Made by a program: the position numbers and the translations under genes
The notes under the pieces: model-generated
What the model was told of the DNA's origin: nothing
Seen by the model: only the letters and a program-made list of their open reading frames with translations
Databases searched by the model: none
Part shown: one piece after another, positions 9,201 to 48,275 of the stretch
How the letters are laid out: each line of letters starts with the position of its first letter
Numbering within the stretch: position 1 is the stretch's first letter
From: Desulfurobacterium atlanticum
Lineage (GTDB): Bacteria > Aquificota > Aquificia > Desulfurobacteriales > Desulfurobacteriaceae
Assembly: GCF_900188395.1 (NCBI RefSeq)
Contig: NZ_FZOB01000011.1
Span: forward strand, 1 to 53,621
Direction of reading: 5' to 3'
Length of the DNA stretch: 53,621 nucleotides

Positions 9201-9418
9201 GAGTAATGGAACTTTCCCTTACTCCATCTGGGAAACTTATTCTTAAATTTGGAAATGATATAAACATTGACCCTGAAAAGCTTGTTGAATTTGTGAAAGA
9301 GAAGGAAGCAACCTTTACACCGGAAAGAATACTTTATATAGATTGTGGCACATCCCTTGAAAATGTTGAAGCAACTCTCAAAGAGCTTAAGGAGAAAACC
9401 TGTGATAAAAAAGCTTGA
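6224..9418 (+). CDS. mfd: Transcription-repair coupling factor
   Basis: 1064 aa Mfd, which removes RNA polymerase stalled at DNA lesions and recruits UvrA. The N-terminal UvrB-like module spans about residues 1-340. The CarD-like RNA polymerase interaction domain starts near 405 (GELVIHRDYGIGIFKG). The RecG-like translocase domain has Walker A GDVGFGKTE near 562, IDEEHKFG near 660, the SATPIPRTL motif, and RGRVGRG in the second RecA fold. The C-terminal TRCF domain (from ~910) binds UvrA. It is slightly shorter than E. coli Mfd (1148). The ATG at 6224 has a weak AGGAAA site upstream. uvrB lies at 21439. The last 17 bases overlap the hydrogenase large-subunit gene. Confidence 0.97.
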   Translation: MDERLLKLVTGKLKLKEKVKCSGLPGASKALFIKELLSKINRQVLVITPSEPLAEALYHDLEREKIKTVHFSAWDTSPFDIASPSALSQFKRLHALHRLMEEKVEVVVVSVESLLQKVIPPEELIEVIFEVRKGEEIDRDTLSEFLSSAGFTRVDAEPDEGEFILKGDHLVIQTPEEKISVEFFGDTVEKITVNGKETQSYVLTPIYEMIPDKKKMKPIKDLYPEVYEKHLLFPSISGGEKLLPFIFDLTPITTYLNDFLTVTIETHQCKAIKTDLIKNYENDFRLLKRENIPVADFEDFIESQLPEPEIEIFEKEKCEIDFEISPMPPIDVVEAEEILKSVKNDRIKVIYSTESLKDEIEKLRKKLTLQIEIEKGISSGGYRIKNKNFTFLTETEIFTPVKEKSVFTLTPGELVIHRDYGIGIFKGITSRDIAGKKFDFVEIEYDRGEKLFAPFTQIDRIFPYTGYKGKKPKLDRLGGTSWKNLERRVKASLIKFAQQLAELYKERKTSSGEAIIGDRQLLKEFESAFPFKETEDQLKAIRDVYKDMESEKPMDRLICGDVGFGKTEVAMRAAMKAVSDGKQVALLAPTTILAEQHYRTFKKRFKGFPVKIELISRFKTKKEQKEILEKVKSGEVDILIGTHRITSDDVEFKNLGLLIIDEEHKFGVKTKEKITSLKKNLDVLYLSATPIPRTLYSAISGFRDISVIETPPVGRKGTKVSVMKYSDKVLKTAIERELEREGQIFIVHNDISSLEEIRQKVEAMFPDTPAEIIHGQMRADKVERIMHRFIEGEIKILIATSIIESGIDIPSANTLIVIGAENFGLSQLYQLKGRVGRGVEKGYCYLLTSPKAKLTKDAVKRLEAIKKVSQLGGGFQLALKDLEIRGAGNLLGPQQSGYINSVGLDLYMKLFSEVLEEKEQEKDVKLNVPVEAFIPEDYIQDAKERIKIYSELSTAENPQTLLSKMEELYGPIPDPVVNTFKLFRIKKLAKALGVMELSLTPSGKLILKFGNDINIDPEKLVEFVKEKEATFTPERILYIDCGTSLENVEATLKELKEKTCDKKA

Positions 9419-10562
9419 GATAGAACCGATTCCACTTACAGAAGGTCATTCTAAATTGGTGTTAAAGGTTGAGGATGGGATAATTACAGAAGGGTTTTAT
9501 TACGCCCTCGTTCCTGTAAGAGGATTTGAAACGATGCTCCTTGATAAAGAGGCAACATTTGCTCCCATAGCAGCTTCAAGGATATGCGGAATGTGTCAGG
9601 CTGTTCACAGTATAGCAGTATCAAGGGCTGTAGAAAACGCCTGCCAGATAGAGGTTCCTGAGAAAGCAAAAAAACTAAGAGAGGTAATAAATCTCTCTGT
9701 TAGAGTCTACAACCACCTCCTTCATCATATTCTCATTTCCGGAAATATTTTTAAAAACGACAAAGAGCGCTTTGAGTTCATAAAATCGGTGCAGAAAATC
9801 AGAAAAACAGTATCTTCTATTCTTGAAATCGTGGGAGGCGGAACAATCCATCCTTCAAACATAGTTATAGGTGGCATCTCTTCACCGATAGAAAACAGTG
9901 TGAAAGAGCGGCTTCTTAAAATGATAGAAGAGATAAAAAGCCTTGCAGAAACAGAAGTTAAAACATTTATAGAATATATAGAAAAAGTCTGGAAAGAAAG
10001 AAATCTTCCTGAAACCTTAGGGAAGCACAATTTACCGTTTTTCTCGCTAAAAGATTTAAAATCCTCCAGTCTAAAAGAAATATACCCTCAGGAGATATTT
10101 GAAGAACTTCCACTAAAAAGGGAAGCTACAAACACAACTATACTCATAAACGGAAAAGGAGCAGAAACCGGTGCAAGGGCAAGAAAAGTAACAGATGGAA
10201 AATTTAAACCTAAAGGCGGAATAAAAGAACTCCATATACTAAGAGCACAGGAGATAGTTCCATCCATTAAAAAAATAGAAGAAATCCTTGAAAAAGATAC
10301 GTTTGAAAAGGAGATAAGAAATCCAACATTTCCAACATCTGATAACGAAACTGTTGGGATAGGAGCAGTTGAAGCACCAAGGGGTGTAAATATCCACAAA
10401 GTTAAAGTTGATAAATCAGGTAGAATAACATATTATAAAGTTATGGTTCCCACCGCTATAAACATGATAGCGATAGCTGAATCTTTAAAAGGGGAAAGAG
10501 CTGAATATGCAGAAATTATAGTGAGAGCCTACGACCCGTGTATCGCCTGTTCAACCCATTGA
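9402..10562 (+). CDS. [NiFe] hydrogenase large subunit, FrhA/MvhA-like (group 3)
   Basis: 386 aa catalytic subunit. The N-terminal nickel ligands are in SRICGMCQAVHS and the C-terminal pair in DPCIACSTH. I choose the GTG at 9402, preceded by AAGGAG at 9391-9396; an upstream in-frame ATG at 9345 lies deep in mfd and has no ribosome site. The protein ends exactly at the His of DPCxxCxxH, so it has no C-terminal extension for a maturation endopeptidase to remove. It is followed directly by small-subunit and FrhB-like genes. The closest described arrangement is archaeal frhADGB/mvh, here without the protease gene frhD. The physiological electron acceptor is unknown. Confidence 0.9.
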   Translation: MIKKLEIEPIPLTEGHSKLVLKVEDGIITEGFYYALVPVRGFETMLLDKEATFAPIAASRICGMCQAVHSIAVSRAVENACQIEVPEKAKKLREVINLSVRVYNHLLHHILISGNIFKNDKERFEFIKSVQKIRKTVSSILEIVGGGTIHPSNIVIGGISSPIENSVKERLLKMIEEIKSLAETEVKTFIEYIEKVWKERNLPETLGKHNLPFFSLKDLKSSSLKEIYPQEIFEELPLKREATNTTILINGKGAETGARARKVTDGKFKPKGGIKELHILRAQEIVPSIKKIEEILEKDTFEKEIRNPTFPTSDNETVGIGAVEAPRGVNIHKVKVDKSGRITYYKVMVPTAINMIAIAESLKGERAEYAEIIVRAYDPCIACSTH

Positions 10563-10573
10563 AGAGGTAGAGA

Positions 10574-11308
10574 TTGATATACTCTTTCAATGAATTTGAT
10601 GAAGATATAAAAGTTAAGCTTGGTTTTTTCCATCTATCAAGCTGTTCAGGGTGTCAGATAGCATTTCTTGATATGTTTGATGAACTAACAGAAATTCTTG
10701 ATACTGTTGAAATAGCTTACTCAAATCTTTTAACAAATAAAAAAGAAATTCCAAAAATAAACGTTGCTTTTGTTGAAGGTTCTTTCTCAATAGGATTTGA
10801 GCCACATATAAAGCTTGTTAGAGAGATAAAAGAGAAAGCTGATATCGTTGTTGCCGTCGGCGGCTGCGCCGCTTTTGGCGGAATAAGAAGACTTAATGTG
10901 GGAGCTCAAGCTCCACAACCATCTCATCAGGCATCTATACCAATAACCGAACTTGGAATGCTTAAAGGAAAGGTAAAGTATGTAATTCCCGGTTGTCCTC
11001 CGAATCCTTACCTTTTGTATAGATTTCTGCTTGCCCTTCTGGAAATTGATGAGGATTTTCTGCAACCTTTTGAACACATGGTATTTTCAACATTTGCCTC
11101 CGGCTATGACATTTTAACCGAAGTTGTAAACAAGGGACTATGCACAGGCTGCGGAACATGTATTTGTGCCTGTCCAACAAAAGCGATAGAATTCAGTAGA
11201 AAAACACAGCGTCCAATCTTCAATAGAACACTTTGCGTTGGTTGCGGTTCCTGCCTTGCAGGATGTCCACAATCGTTTAAACCTTATCCTCAACCAGTTT
11301 ATGAGTAA
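10574..11308 (+). CDS. [NiFe] hydrogenase small subunit with ferredoxin tail (FrhG-like)
   Basis: 244 aa electron-transfer subunit, cytoplasmic (no Tat signal). The proximal [4Fe-4S] cluster ligands appear in LSSCSGCQIAF (about residues 22-28), VGGCAAFGG (~97) and IPGCPPNPY (~138). The C-terminal third carries two ferredoxin motifs, CTGCGTCICACP and CVGCGSCLAGCP, as in FrhG of F420-reducing hydrogenases. The start codon is TTG at 10574 with GAGGTAGAG just upstream; no in-frame ATG is near. It lies 11 bases after the large subunit and 12 before the FrhB-like gene, so a single complex is likely. Confidence 0.92.
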   Translation: MIYSFNEFDEDIKVKLGFFHLSSCSGCQIAFLDMFDELTEILDTVEIAYSNLLTNKKEIPKINVAFVEGSFSIGFEPHIKLVREIKEKADIVVAVGGCAAFGGIRRLNVGAQAPQPSHQASIPITELGMLKGKVKYVIPGCPPNPYLLYRFLLALLEIDEDFLQPFEHMVFSTFASGYDILTEVVNKGLCTGCGTCICACPTKAIEFSRKTQRPIFNRTLCVGCGSCLAGCPQSFKPYPQPVYE

Positions 11309-11320
11309 TGGAGGAATTGA

Positions 11321-12229
11321 ATGTTCGGACTTTATAGACAATTTACTATAGGAAGATACACAAAAGCTTTTCTTATAAAGGACAAAAAAAGCTGCACTTC
11401 ACGTAGCAATTTAAAGGCTATTTTGAAGGAAGCTTTCAAAAAAGGCTTAATAGACAGTGCTATCGGAACTACTCTTGAAAAAAACTGCGAAAACCCGTCA
11501 GTAAAGCCGGTATTTATTAAATCCCTAAAAGAGATTGATAGCTTTGAACCGTTCTTCTTTATCCATGGAGGGCAAAATTCCATTTTGAAAGAGATAACCC
11601 AAAAGTATAGTTTTGAAAAACTCGGAGTTATAGGACACTCCTGTATTCTTGATGGAATAAATAAGATGCAGTACTACGGAATAGGAAGCAACTTTGCTGT
11701 GCTTAAATTTTCTCTAAAAATAGGAATAGGATGTATAGGTGCACTGTCCCTTGAAGGTATGAATTGTCTATTAAAGGAGAAAAAACTTCCGCAGTGTGAT
11801 TTTGATGAAACTTTCTTCAAAAAGGGGAGAGTATTCATATCTAAAAAAGAGCCGTTTGCATTTTCAATTGAAGAGTATTACTATTATTTGAATGAGGGAT
11901 GCAAAGTGTGTATGAATTTATCCTCCAGAGGAAGTGACTTAACATTTGTTCCATATATGGAAGATGGATATTCTCTCTGTTTTGTAAGAACGAAAAAAGG
12001 GCTTAAACTATTTGAGAATCCAGATTTTGAAGTTAAAGAAGCACAAGAGCGCAACATAACTGAAGTTGAAGAAACAGTAAAGCAGGTTTTAAAAAAGAAC
12101 ATAGAAAACGTTCTTGAAAGAGCTGAACTTGGAGTTCCATCAAACAAATGGGATGGAAATAGGTTCGGTAAATTCAGTGCTTTATGGAACAACATATACG
12201 CTGAAAATATAGAAGAGGAGGTGTTTTAA
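11321..12229 (+). CDS. FrhB-like iron-sulfur flavoprotein subunit of the hydrogenase
   Basis: 302 aa, related to the coenzyme F420 hydrogenase/dehydrogenase beta subunit family. Matching landmarks are the N-terminal helix NLKAILKEAFKKGLIDSAIG, then KLGVIGHSCILDGINKMQ, LKIGIGCIG, EGCKVCMNLSSRGSD and SLCFVRTKKGLKLFE. The cysteines at GHSC, GIGC and CKVC match those that hold a [4Fe-4S] cluster next to FAD in FrhB. The N-terminal ferredoxin-like CxxCGxC motif found in some relatives is missing. GGAGG lies upstream of the ATG at 11321. The family partner could be F420, but bacteria of this type are not expected to rely on F420, so the acceptor is open. Confidence 0.85.
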   Translation: MFGLYRQFTIGRYTKAFLIKDKKSCTSRSNLKAILKEAFKKGLIDSAIGTTLEKNCENPSVKPVFIKSLKEIDSFEPFFFIHGGQNSILKEITQKYSFEKLGVIGHSCILDGINKMQYYGIGSNFAVLKFSLKIGIGCIGALSLEGMNCLLKEKKLPQCDFDETFFKKGRVFISKKEPFAFSIEEYYYYLNEGCKVCMNLSSRGSDLTFVPYMEDGYSLCFVRTKKGLKLFENPDFEVKEAQERNITEVEETVKQVLKKNIENVLERAELGVPSNKWDGNRFGKFSALWNNIYAENIEEEVF

Positions 12230-42277: not shown

Positions 42278-44491
42278 ATGAAAAAAGAGATTATTGAAAA
42301 ACACCTGCCTTTAAACGAATATAAGAAAGCGGTTGAGCTTCTTGGCAGAGAACCCAATCTTGTTGAACTTGGCATATTCTCAGCTATGTGGTCAGAACAC
42401 TGCTCTTATAAATCTTCCCGTGTTCATCTTTCAAAATTTCCCACAAAAGCTCCGTGGGTTGTTCAGGGACCCGGGGAAAATGCCGGAATAATCATGGTTG
42501 ATGAAGAAAAAGGGATATGTGCGGCTTTTAAGGTTGAATCCCATAACCATCCCTCATTTATAGAACCTTTTAACGGAGCCGCAACAGGAGTTGGCGGAAT
42601 TTTAAGAGATGTATTCACAATGGGAGCAAGACCAATAGCGTGTATGGACTCCTTAAGATTCGGGGAACTTTCCGACCCGAAAATGAAATATGTGATGAAA
42701 GGAGTGGTTTCTGGAATAAGTCACTATGGTAACTGCGTTGGCGTCCCAACAGTAGGTGGTGAGGTGTATTTTGATAGCTGTTATCAAACAAATCCTCTTG
42801 TAAACGCTTTTGCTCTTGGAATTGTGAAAAAGGATAAGATTTTCTACGCACAGGCAGCCGGTGTAGGAAATCCTGTAATTTATGTTGGTTCAAAAACAGG
42901 AAGGGACGGAATCCACGGAGCAACCATGGCATCTGAAGAGTTCTCATCAGAAGAGGAAGTTGAAAAAAAAGTAAACGTTCAGGTTGGAGACCCGTTTATT
43001 GAAAAACTACTGATAGAAGCGTGCCTTGAAGCAATGGAAACAGAAGGAATAATTGCAATTCAGGATATGGGAGCGGCAGGGCTGACATCTTCTTCTGTTG
43101 AGATGGCATCAAGAGGAAATGTAGGCGTTAAACTTGACCTTGATAAAGTTCCCACAAGAGAAGAAGGAATGACACCTTACGAGATTATGCTTTCAGAATC
43201 TCAGGAAAGAATGCTTGTTGTGTGCGAAAAAGGTAAAGAAGAAAATATTATAAAAGTATTTAAAAAATGGGGCCTTGATGCATGTATTATCGGTGAAATC
43301 ATAGAAGAACCTGTAATAAGACTTTTCTGGCATAATGAAAAAGTCGCAGAGCTTCCAGTAAATATCCTGACAGATGAAGCACCTGTTTATTACAGACCTT
43401 TCAAAGTTCCACAGTATATAATAGAAAACAGAAGCTACAACCAGGAAATCCTCCCCCAGCCTGAAGACTTAAATGAAATAACATTAAAGCTTTTATCTTC
43501 CCCCACCATAGCAAGTAAAAGGTGGATTTATGAACAGTATGACCACATGGTTCAGATAAATACTGTTGTATATCCTGGCTCAGACGCTTCTGTTTTAAGA
43601 GTAAAGGAAAGCAGAAAAGGTATCGCTATAAGCTCTGACTGTAACTCAAGATACTGCTATCTTAATCCTTACGAAGGTGGAAAGATAGCTGTTGCAGAAG
43701 CTGCAAGAAATGTTGCATGCAGCGGTGCAACACCAAGAGCCATTACAGACTGTCTAAACTTTGCAAGTCCAGAAGATCCAGAAATAATGTGGCAATTTGT
43801 AAAATGCACCGACGGAATGGCAGATGCGTGTAAAATCCTTGAAACCCCTGTGGTAAGCGGAAATGTTAGCTTTTATAATGAAACCGCTCTTGAAAACGGA
43901 AAAAGAGCCATTTTCCCCACTCCAACAGTTGTATGTGTGGGCGTTCTGGAGAACGTTGAAAAAAGAATGACAAAAGATTTTAAAGATGAAGGTGATGTAA
44001 TAATCCTGCTTGGAGAAAATACAGGTAATATTTCTGGAAGTGAATATCAGAAGCTTATTGAAGGAGAATTTAAAGGAACAGGGCAAACAATTGACCTCAA
44101 GTTTGAAAAGACCCTTCAAAACAGCATTGTTGAAGCTATCCAGAAAGAGCTTATAAAAAGTGCCCATGATATTTCAGAAGGAGGTATAGCCGTAGCTCTT
44201 TTTGAATCTTCTTTCGGAAGAAACCTCGGATTTGAAGTAAATCTAAACGACAATATCAGAAGTGATTTTCTGCTTTTTGGAGAAGAACAGAGCAGAATCA
44301 TTATTTCTGTATCTCCAGAAAAAGAGGAAGAGGTGCTTGAATTTTTCAAAGAAAGAACCATCCCTGCAAAGAGAATAGGAGTGGTAAAAGGAAACAGAGG
44401 TATAATAAGTCATAATGGAAAAGAGGTCATAAATATCTCTGTAGAGGAGGCAAAACAGTATTACGAGACCGGCCTTGAAAAGAACCTTTAG
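42278..44491 (+). CDS. purL: Phosphoribosylformylglycinamidine synthase, small-type PurL
   Basis: 737 aa FGAM synthase catalytic subunit of the PurL-PurQ-PurS type (no C-terminal amidotransferase domain). It catalyses the fourth step of purine synthesis, FGAR to FGAM. Motifs include [53 protein letters not shown]-type [11 protein letters not shown], and the second half with [11 protein letters not shown] and [14 protein letters not shown]. purQ and purS must be elsewhere. AAAGGAG lies before the ATG. Its last 17 bases overlap the downstream kinase gene. Confidence 0.97.
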
Positions 44492-45692
44492 GGAAAGAGA
44501 TTTTTTAAAAGATTTTTTTCTCTACTATAAACTTTCAAGAGTAATATTTGCTGTATCTCTACTGCTTATTATCCTTTCCCTCTCGTTTTTACGGGAGGGA
44601 GCTTTCTCCTACACCAATCCCGCAATAGTTATCTTTATCTATTCAATAGTAGCAATGGCTTCCCTATTCTATAAAAAAGAGAACCCTTTAGATTTCCTTC
44701 TTGACATAATATTTATCTCCGCTCTAATAAGAAGCAATCTACTATACTGGGACTATGTATCAATACTTTATCTGTTCCCGATATTTTTCTCCTCGCTCTT
44801 TCTTGAGAAACCATACACAATCATATTTCCTGTTATAAGCCTTATAATCTACGGTGGAATTATCTACACAACAGGATACTATTCACAACAGGAGATATTA
44901 ATAAAACTATTTCTGAACGGTGTAGCCTTTTTCTCCATCTACTTTGCAGGAAAAGCATTTGAGAAAAAACTGAAAACTCAATCACTTTACATTTTAGAAC
45001 TTGAAAAGGAAAAGAGAAAAAATGAAGTATTCAAAAGACTTTACCACATAAGTGCTGACCTTGCACATGAAATTAAAAACCCCGTTGCATCAATAAAAGC
45101 AGCTGTAGAACTTTTAGATGAAGCTGAAAAACCAAACAGAAAACTCCTTAACCTTATAAAAAAAGAAACCATAAGACTTTCAAACATAGTAAACGATTTT
45201 TTAATACTCTCAAGACCACTTGATATGCAAAAGTCTGAAATATCAATAATAGAACTTATAAAGAATATTGTCGATTCTTTAAAAGTTATCCATCCCGATA
45301 AAAAAACAAAGGTAAATTTAAAAACCGATAGAAACTTAAAACTACTCTTACCTTATAAGTCATTTTTTTCAGCTATCTCAAATCTTATAAAAAACAGCTT
45401 TGAATGGGCAGAAAGTGAAGTGGAAATAACTGTAGAAGAGACAGAGAAAACTGTTAAAATAATTATAAAAGACGACGGACCGGGAATAAAAAAGGAACAT
45501 TTAGATACTATATTTGAACCTTTCTTCACAACGAAGAAAGAAGGAAGTGGACTTGGACTTGCAATAGCAAAGCGGGTGGCAATAGAACTTGGAGGAAACT
45601 TAACAGTAAAAAATTCCCCTGAGAAAGGAGCAATTTTCATATTTGAAATACCAAAAAAGAAGAGAACAGAAGATGAAAGCGCTTATAGTTGA
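44475..45692 (+). CDS. Membrane sensor histidine kinase (PilS/NtrB-like)
   Basis: 405 aa. Five or six hydrophobic helices in residues 15-170 form the membrane sensor, with no large periplasmic domain, similar to PilS. The catalytic core has [23 protein letters not shown] (H box), [13 protein letters not shown] (N box), IKDDGPGI (G1), [21 protein letters not shown] (F/G2). The TTG at 44475 is the start, lying inside the end of purL. It overlaps the response-regulator gene by 20 bases and so forms a pair with it. Stimulus unknown. Confidence 0.92.
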
Positions 45693-47019
45693 TGATGAGA
45701 AAAGCATCAGGGATATACTATCCATAATGCTTTCAGAGTTTAACTTTGACATTGAAGAAGCAGAAACCGTAAAAGAAGCCAGTAAAAAGCTAAATGAAAG
45801 CAGGTTTGACCTTCTACTTCTTGACCTTAGATTGCCTGACGGCCACGGTATGGACATACTGAGAACTCTCAGGGAAAAAGGTAAAAAAACAGAAGTGATA
45901 ATTATCACTGCCTTTGGTTCGGCAGAAACTGCACAGGAAGCGTTAAAACTCGGAGCGTTTGATTATGTCACAAAACCTTTTGATGTTTCAGAATTAAGAC
46001 TGATACTGAGAAATGTAAAGAAAAAAATAGAGCTTGAAAAGAAAGTTGAAGAGTATGAAAAAACATATAAAGAGTTCATAGGAGAATCTCCCCAAATCCG
46101 CAGGATAAAAGAGTTCATAAAAAAAATAGCTCCCTTTGACACAAACGTGCTTATACTTGGGGAAAGCGGAACAGGAAAAGAGGTTGTGGCACAAACAATT
46201 CATCAATTAAGCCACAGGAAAGACAAACCCTTTATAGCAATAAACTGTGCATCTCTTCCGTCAGAACTTCTTGAAAGTGAACTTTTTGGATATAAAAAAG
46301 GAGCTTTTACAGGTGCAGTATCAAACAAAAAAGGTCTCATAGAACAGGCTGACGGCGGAACACTTTTTCTTGATGAAATAGGAGACATGCCTCTTCCCCT
46401 TCAGGCAAAAATTCTAAGATTCATAGAGGATAGAAAAATCCGCCCTATTGGAAGCCTTGAAGAGAAAGAGGTGGACGTTCGGATAATTGCTGCTACCAAC
46501 AAAAACCTTGAAGAGCTTATAAACAAAGGACTGTTTCGTGAAGACCTTTACTACAGACTTTCAACCATAACTGTAGAACTACCTCCTCTAAGAGAAAGAA
46601 AAGAGGACATTCCTCTTCTTGTTAAATATTTCCTTGAAAAACTTTCAAAAAAATACAAAAAAGAGATAAAAAGAATAGACCCGGACTTTTTAGACTATCT
46701 TTATTCCCTGCCTTTTAAGGGAAACGTAAGGGAACTCAGAAATATTGTTGAAAAGGCGATTATTCTTTCTGACGGAGAAACTCTTACAATTCCGGGAAAA
46801 AGAGAAAAGGAACTAACTTCCAAAATAAAAATCGGGGATTTTCCAGAAAATGGGGTAAATCTTAAAAAAATCCTTGAAGAAACAGAAAAATTTTACCTGA
46901 AAAAAGCCCTTGAAAAGGCAAGCGGGAAAAAGATAGAAGCTGCAAAACTGCTGGGTTTGACCTTCAGAGAGTTCCGTTATAGACTTTCAAAGTATCAAAT
47001 TGAAGACAAATTAAGCTAA
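45673..47019 (+). CDS. NtrC-family sigma-54-dependent response regulator
   Basis: 448 aa from the ATG at 45673 (preceded by AGAAGAG/AGAAG). Receiver domain with [20 protein letters not shown] (phospho-Asp) and YVTKPFDV. AAA+ domain with Walker A GESGTGKE, the standard GAFTGA loop, Walker B LFLDEIGDMPLPLQ and arginine-rich YRLSTITVELPPLRER. The C-terminal Fis-type HTH is KKIEAAKLLGLTFREFRYRL. It activates sigma-54 promoters, none of which I could place in this window. An in-frame start at 45643 falls inside the kinase gene and lacks a ribosome site. Confidence 0.94.
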   Translation: MKALIVDDEKSIRDILSIMLSEFNFDIEEAETVKEASKKLNESRFDLLLLDLRLPDGHGMDILRTLREKGKKTEVIIITAFGSAETAQEALKLGAFDYVTKPFDVSELRLILRNVKKKIELEKKVEEYEKTYKEFIGESPQIRRIKEFIKKIAPFDTNVLILGESGTGKEVVAQTIHQLSHRKDKPFIAINCASLPSELLESELFGYKKGAFTGAVSNKKGLIEQADGGTLFLDEIGDMPLPLQAKILRFIEDRKIRPIGSLEEKEVDVRIIAATNKNLEELINKGLFREDLYYRLSTITVELPPLRERKEDIPLLVKYFLEKLSKKYKKEIKRIDPDFLDYLYSLPFKGNVRELRNIVEKAIILSDGETLTIPGKREKELTSKIKIGDFPENGVNLKKILEETEKFYLKKALEKASGKKIEAAKLLGLTFREFRYRLSKYQIEDKLS

Positions 47020-47084: not shown

Positions 47085-47113
47085 TTGACACTACATATTC
47101 TCTCTGTTATTAT
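47085..47113 (+). promoter_or_regulatory. Sigma-70 promoter of the multiheme cytochrome gene
   Basis: TTGACA (47085-47090), 17 bases, TATTAT (47108-47113). The -35 is consensus and the spacing ideal. The ATG at 47157 is preceded by AGGAGGG, giving a leader of about 40 bases. Confidence 0.75.
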
Positions 47114-47156
47114 TAGTTGTAAAGTTGAAAATCCCAAAGCAGGAGGGTCGTTAATA

Positions 47157-48230
47157 ATGAGAGGGAAATTAAAAGCACTCATCCTCTGTTCTATGCTGAT
47201 GGGTGCTACAACGGCTTACGGTGTAACCCTTACAAACTGCCCACCCTCCCTTACAGCAGGAGGAAATCTTCCGAAAATAGGTCCGGAAGAGAAGGCTTTA
47301 TTTACTAACCCGGTTCAACCGTTAAAGCCAGCCGATTGTGGTGCCTGTCACTATAGTATCTATAAAGCGATGCAGAAAGAGGGTGGAAGACACAAGTTTG
47401 ATTGTACTATCTGTCACAAGAAGTTCCACGAATGGAACCCTAAAATGGGTGTAAAAGGCTGGCAGGAGATGATGCCAAAATGTGCCACATGTCACGGTCT
47501 ATACCACGGCCCAACTATACCTGATTGTGCTAAATGTCACACAGATCCACACGCTATCAAAAAGCCAATGCCTGTTACAACACCGTTTACTGGCTTTGTT
47601 GGCGGTAAGAAGTATCCAGGAACAGGCCAGCCTGAAAACTACGTGGCTAAAAACTGTCAGGTATGTCATGAACCAATCTATGACCTTATGCAGCAAAAAG
47701 TTACGAAACATACAGAAATCGGCTGCGCTGCATGTCACCATTCTGAACACGGATACATTCCAGAGTGTCTTGAATGTCACCTTCCACACACACCAGAACA
47801 GACAAACAACGATTGCTTTGCATGCCACCACAATCCACACGATCCTCTCAACATCACATACGGCAAGAACACTCCAAATTCTCAGTGTGCTGCATGTCAC
47901 GCTCTTGTTACAAAGAATCTGGAAACATCACCTACAAAACACAGCAAGGTTGCATGTGTTGCATGTCACCACAGCAAGCACGGATTTATCCCAAGATGTC
48001 AGGATTGTCACGGAGAGTATCCACACGGAAAGGCTATCCACGAAAAATATCCAGATTGTCTCACATGTCACATCACTCCTCACGACCCAGCATGCAGAAG
48101 CAATCCAAAACCAGACGATGTTCTCAAAGCAGAATTTGCAGAAGAATACAAAGCTCTGGAAAAACTCAAAGCATTCAGAGCAAAAGGTGGAAAACTCAAC
48201 TACATCAATCTGGAAAAACTTACAAAGTAA
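47157..48230 (+). CDS. Periplasmic dodecaheme c-type cytochrome
   Basis: 357 aa with a Sec signal peptide (MRGKLKALILCSMLMGATTA) and twelve CxxCH heme sites: CGACH, CTICH, CATCH, CAKCH, CQVCH, CAACH, CLECH, CFACH, CAACH, CVACH, CQDCH and CLTCH. These fall into three similar four-heme modules, each ending in a CxxCHxxPH motif. Many extra His could serve as distal ligands. A lysine-rich helical tail ends the protein. The role is likely periplasmic electron transfer; the donor and acceptor are unknown. The gene has its own promoter and terminator and no neighbours encoding a reductase. An in-frame ATG at 47082 lies in the promoter and is rejected. Confidence 0.93.
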   Translation: MRGKLKALILCSMLMGATTAYGVTLTNCPPSLTAGGNLPKIGPEEKALFTNPVQPLKPADCGACHYSIYKAMQKEGGRHKFDCTICHKKFHEWNPKMGVKGWQEMMPKCATCHGLYHGPTIPDCAKCHTDPHAIKKPMPVTTPFTGFVGGKKYPGTGQPENYVAKNCQVCHEPIYDLMQQKVTKHTEIGCAACHHSEHGYIPECLECHLPHTPEQTNNDCFACHHNPHDPLNITYGKNTPNSQCAACHALVTKNLETSPTKHSKVACVACHHSKHGFIPRCQDCHGEYPHGKAIHEKYPDCLTCHITPHDPACRSNPKPDDVLKAEFAEEYKALEKLKAFRAKGGKLNYINLEKLTK

Positions 48231-48247
48231 TCATTATAAGTACCATC

Positions 48248-48275
48248 AAAAAGGGGAGCAGTTGCTCCCCTTTTT
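48248..48275 (+). terminator. Rho-independent terminator of the cytochrome gene
   Basis: AAAGGGGAGCA/TGCTCCCCTTT, an 11-bp stem with a two-base loop followed by T residues. It separates the cytochrome unit from cysE. Confidence 0.9.

Follow-up and report, generated by a model that had tools for sequence, protein, structure and literature searches.

The dodecaheme cytochromes GSU1996 and GSU0592 from Geobacter (PDB 3OV0) are periplasmic "nanowire" proteins, which have been proposed to serve as an electron capacitor (PMC10138318). The cytochrome described here resembles them in having 12 CxxCH hemes on one exported chain of about 37–42 kDa composed of tandem homologous modules. It should be noted, however, that GSU1996 is built from four triheme c7 domains with one His-Met heme each, whereas in the present protein there are three tetraheme modules, the repeat period is four hemes, and the number of invariant histidines is sufficient for bis-His ligation throughout. 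The tetraheme build thus shows that heme chains can be extended by duplication in another way than with the triheme units of the described soluble dodecaheme type. STC/CctA from Shewanella is also tetraheme and periplasmic, and a search with the module profile matched STC chains at E 0.02; the alignment covers only part of a module, however, and STC/CctA has one module where there are three here. The multidomain class III c3 cytochromes of sulfate reducers (16-heme HmcA, 9-heme NhcA) are likewise periplasmic carriers with tandem heme modules, and HmcA chains head the list of module-profile matches in the PDB. They differ in that the class III c3 model (PF02085) scores below cut-off with the present protein (18.1 versus 22.9 bits), which lacks CxxxxCH motifs and has no genes for Hmc-type membrane partners nearby. 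Where alignments were displayed, the single-stretch E-values of the PDB matches (HmcA, GSU1996, and others) were 0.1 or worse; these matches, which reflect CxxCH content, were discounted.

Two Pfam models are passed, Cytochrome_C7 (PF14522; 30.9 bits, cut-off 24.8) and Cytochrom_c3_2 (PF14537; 30.0 bits, cut-off 25), and both matches are generic, since many other multiheme proteins tested match these models too. The best NCBIfam model, that for CctA/STC tetraheme cytochromes (NF047727), reaches 19.8 bits with an equivalog cut-off of 180. Comparison with the NapC/NrfH, OmcA-like, and c554 families, which the original prediction had named for comparison, yielded no passing score: PF03264 (NapC/NrfH) and PF13435 (tetraheme c554) gave no match up to E 10, and PF22113 (OmcA/MtrC surface decaheme) remained below its cut-off (25.9 versus 30 bits). 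There is also no membrane anchor past the N-terminal signal. The c7 triheme model TIGR04257 does not match up to E 10 either; another protein encoded in this genome, L036, does match it (76.7 bits, cut-off 40). No curated dodecaheme family matches the protein, and none of the solved structures is a full-length relative.

The 12-heme gene and its transcription

The window, i.e., the entire stretch of 53,621 nucleotides that was analysed, comes from a thermophilic vent bacterium belonging to the Desulfurobacterium group. Its only multiheme gene (47157..48230, + strand; frame and motif count) encodes a c-type cytochrome of 357 amino acids with 12 CxxCH sites in a single frame, at 47337, 47403, 47481, and 47526, at 47655, 47724, 47766, and 47814, and at 47886, 47955, 47997, and 48057. 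A scan of the protein for CxxxCH, CxxxxCH, and CxxCK motifs found none. Hydropathy is at its maximum at residues 7–25, and beyond the N terminus there is no second hydrophobic segment. By eye and hydropathy, residues 1–22 (MRGKLKALILCSMLMGATTAYG; 47157..47222, +) are probably a cleavable signal peptide and the protein is probably exported. The mature protein has a mass of about 37 kDa without hemes. Alignment of the homologs delimits a conserved, charged, heme-free C-terminal tail, which is probably helical (residues 314–357; 48096..48227, +).

That the gene has a private promoter and terminator, as had been proposed, is borne out by conservation and folding. A sigma-70-type promoter, TTGACA-17-TATTAT, whose second hexamer is preceded by TG (11 of 12 matches), is located at 47085..47113 (+); in the scan of the single genome the total count of such sites was at chance level, and the assignment relies on the scan together with conservation. 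From the promoter to the start codon 75–76 of 80 bases are identical in three congeners, and 17–23 of 60 in the stretch directly upstream of the promoter; the coding DNA is 82–87% identical in the two congeners compared. The 5′ leader (47119–47156, +) is more conserved across species than the coding DNA, and folding prediction gave no stable structure for it. Within it, the ribosome-binding site AGGAGGG (47141..47147, +), 9 nt before the ATG, is kept in four species, bar one base in one of them (G003). Downstream of the gene follows an intrinsic terminator hairpin (48248..48275, +) of 12 bp with a loop of 4 and a T run at its end (−19.5 kcal/mol, z −5.7), and comparable GC-rich hairpins were seen by eye 3′ of the gene in 5/5 homologous loci. 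In the genome of a sister family that also carries the gene (G022), it is likewise a single gene; its surroundings there are unrelated, and a promoter-like site (TTGACA-TATAAA) precedes it. Because of the conserved promoter and leader, the terminator hairpins, and the isolated gene in G022, the 12-heme gene is, judged from its sequence, a monocistronic transcription unit of its own.

The tetraheme modules and their probable heme ligands

The sites were predicted to group as 4+4+4, and the sequence repeat between the modules confirms this grouping. Alignments place module M1 at residues 57–136 (47325..47564), M2 at residues 163–232 (47643..47852), and M3 at residues 240–313 (47874..48095), all on the + strand. 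Of the module starts given in the original prediction, 47337 and 47655 coincide with the first CxxCH of their module, whereas 47884 is off by 2 nt, the site being at 47886. The spacing of the CxxCH sites is 22, 26, and 15 in M1, 23, 14, and 16 in M2, and 23, 14, and 20 in M3, with 43 between M1 and M2 and 24 between M2 and M3; the M2/M3 border, invisible in these distances alone, is revealed by the sequence repeat. All three modules have the order CxxCH - H - CxxCHxxxH - CxxCH..H - CxxCH..H, and in M1 an extra 12 residues separate the second heme from the third. The core CAACHH/CVACHH-x2-HG[YF]IP-x-CxxCH ascribed to M2 and M3 is real. The motif CxxCHxxPH, thought to close every module, does so here and in the genus; the distant homolog departs from this in its M2, where there is an insertion. 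Among nine aligned modules 16 columns are invariant: 12 heme-site residues, three distal histidines, and one proline.

Proteins rich in CxxCH can align spuriously, for example in the profile matches to PDB entries of unrelated multiheme proteins, and the 4+4+4 pattern could in principle be mere spacing of heme motifs in modules without common descent. The pairwise scores of the modules (M1-M2 111, M1-M3 123, M2-M3 180) make this extremely unlikely. In 2000 shuffles with every Cys and His held fixed, no score as high was obtained for any pair (0/2000 each), and z was 4.3, 5.2, and 6.0, respectively. Against a harder, natural null, 15 other, unrelated multiheme proteins encoded by this bacterium, the best scores were 69 for M1, 76 for M2, and 85 for M3. 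The self-alignment of the modules therefore exceeds by far what CxxCH spacing explains, and the analysis of the sequence supports a tandem triplication of a homologous tetraheme unit, as originally suggested. Aligned with its own counterpart in G022, M1 scores 287, M3 313, and M2 166, the M2 of this homolog being diverged and carrying the insertion. Because of this module-by-module pairing of M1 and M3, the triplication probably predates the split of the two families which hold the gene, or it arrived as a unit.

Across an alignment of six homologs no cysteines are invariant except the 24 of the heme sites. Outside the motifs 14 histidines are invariant: 79, 91, 117, and 132 in M1; 185, 195, 198, 211, and 228 in M2; and 262, 272, 275, 290, and 309 in M3. 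Full bis-His ligation requires 12, and the two in surplus are the second histidines of the CxxCHH motifs. As there are at least four invariant non-motif histidines per module, all 12 hemes can be bis-His, a ligation which we infer from conservation. Four methionines (72, 106, 138, and 178) are invariant, too. Structure prediction reached a pLDDT of 39 for the whole protein and of 66 for M3 alone; with this low-confidence M3 model Foldseek found no match below E 4, the only matches being with MccA at E 4 or worse, and these were disregarded.

Neighbourhood and distribution

In 4/4 genomes of the genus the gene order is purL, histidine kinase, NtrC-type regulator, cytochrome, cysE, SPOR protein, polA. 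The neighbours directly upstream are thus the genus-conserved genes for a histidine kinase (44475..45692, +) and for an NtrC-type sigma-54 response regulator (45676..47019, +), as obtained from locus comparison, and, as had been stated, no reductase gene is adjacent to the cytochrome. A sigma-54 promoter for the adjacent regulator was sought by eye upstream of the cytochrome gene, and none was seen. In other genera cysE is kept, in most cases with a SPOR-like gene after it, and the block upstream of cysE is missing; at three such loci inspected further, transporter-like genes replace it. The kinase-regulator pair (44475–47019, +) stands beside the cytochrome in the genus and is absent upstream of cysE elsewhere.

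The 12-heme gene is present in 4/4 genomes of the genus and in G022 (51% identity) and absent from the other 131 Aquificota genomes examined. Phyla outside the Aquificota were covered by exact peptide patterns, which detect close relatives only: over 84,980 species genomes they gave a single match, in a Desulfurobacterium sp. MAG. Among 72,556 plasmid records there were no relatives. The arrangement of three times four hemes is a new, lineage-restricted form of a familiar type of electron-transfer protein.

Proposed function and other multiheme proteins of the genome

The 12-heme protein is fairly likely to be a soluble, exported carrier with a triplicated, all-bis-His four-heme module, which in the periplasm relays and stores electrons between quinol dehydrogenases and multiheme reductases. 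It would be exported via Sec and then receive its hemes, and the modules would fold as three linked four-heme units with the hemes close together. The protein could then carry and store electrons at low potential in the periplasm; these would be supplied by NapC/NrfH-type quinol dehydrogenases of the membrane and handed on to multiheme terminal reductases, e.g., the octaheme Hao-type enzyme encoded on contig C4. The identity of the partners is the most uncertain part of this proposal, no gene neighbour naming one. A free periplasmic carrier, as first suggested, fits the apparent cleavable signal, the lack of a further hydrophobic segment, and the monocistronic unit. The genomic context is rich in multiheme proteins, including pairs of NrfH-like tetraheme and octaheme Hao-type proteins. 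The genes were located by pattern, and all counts are minimum values: at least eight other stretches of the genome encode proteins with four or more hemes; at least three octaheme Hao-type proteins are found in the 1.7 Mb (L040, L041, and L042; contigs C4 and C6 of G000); at least two NrfH-like tetraheme proteins each lie beside one octaheme Hao-type protein; and an Otr-like octaheme protein is also encoded.

Co-occurrence with the 12-heme gene was compared for five cytochromes (the 24-heme protein, the C6 Hao, the Otr-like octaheme protein, the C3 hexaheme protein, and the C4 Hao), of which only the C4 Hao is present as a close relative wherever the 12-heme gene is (81–100% identity; 5/5 genomes). 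Close relatives of the C4 Hao occur in 2/13 other genomes of the order (other genera, 73% identity), the rest having distant paralogs only. The hypergeometric probability is 0.002 per genome and about 0.17 per genus, not significant; the association is a weak one, to be taken as a lead only, because it is one of five comparisons, involves two genera, and is phylogenetically clumped. For Nautilia it has been proposed that Hao runs in reverse and converts nitrite to hydroxylamine (PMC10092268). By analogy, the 12-heme carrier could feed a reverse-type Hao enzyme. It is improbable, though conceivable, that the family is confined to the Desulfurobacteriales, with modules stacking as a continuous 12-heme wire which spans much of the periplasm or polymerises and serves a Hao-type nitrite/hydroxylamine pathway.

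The protein might instead be the periplasmic link in extracellular electron transfer, delivering electrons to a multiheme conduit in the outer membrane or at the surface and not to a soluble reductase. Porin-cytochrome clusters have been reported in Desulfurobacterium thermolithotrophum and Thermovibrio ammonificans (PMC4245776), and the present genome has a 24-heme cluster with cytochrome b and a beta-propeller protein as well as a genus-specific 6-/5-/8-heme cluster found in 4/4 genomes of the genus. Both clusters are, however, missing from G022, which has the 12-heme gene, the 24-heme cluster is present in most genera of the family without that gene, and by eye neither cluster stretch contains an outer-membrane porin. 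A role in extracellular transfer is therefore considered unlikely. Less likely still, and indeed very doubtful, is that the protein is itself a redox enzyme reducing a nitrogen or sulfur compound. Although this genome is well supplied with multiheme reductases of the Hao and Otr types, the Hao, Otr, and NrfA models of Pfam and NCBIfam do not match, the only Foldseek matches are the insignificant ones with MccA, there is no CxxCK, CxxxCH, or CxxxxCH motif, and with at least twelve invariant distal histidines for twelve hemes there is no obvious open heme. The protein may help to identify the periplasmic carrier in vent bacteria with Hao-type octaheme enzymes. Its small size, export, and thermophilic origin make it well suited for redox and structural work, as does the possibility of working with one module at a time.

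Some observations on other genes may be added. The cluster kept in most Desulfurobacteriaceae (L043:8755-11280, G000 contig C16:17754-20279, and L043:4727-8755) combines the 24-heme cytochrome with a hexaheme membrane cytochrome, a diheme protein of lipoprotein-like type, cytochrome b, an NHL-type beta-propeller, and a triheme protein; its hexaheme member is similar to Dester_0351/Theam_0871 as described in PMC4245776. On contig C3 (L039:137-9744), genes for 6-, 5-, and 8-heme cytochromes are clustered with genes for a foldase-like protein and for proteins resembling beta-propellers; among the genomes tested, the hexaheme gene is confined to the genus, where 4/4 have it, and a close paralog of the 8-heme protein is encoded at L035 (C1:61 kb). 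The Hao-type protein at C4:106 kb is 81% identical in G022, a member of another family, versus 73% in genomes of the same family, which hints at horizontal exchange; genome G005 holds two C4-type copies with equal scores. Within the window, 9348–12226 (+) encodes three subunits of a Ni-Fe hydrogenase (alpha, gamma, and beta), which resemble the F420-reducing FrhA/FrhG/FrhB (329.9, 223.6, and 79 bits, all under the equivalog cut-offs). They are followed by a gene for an ArsR-type regulator, and the set looks unusual for a bacterium.
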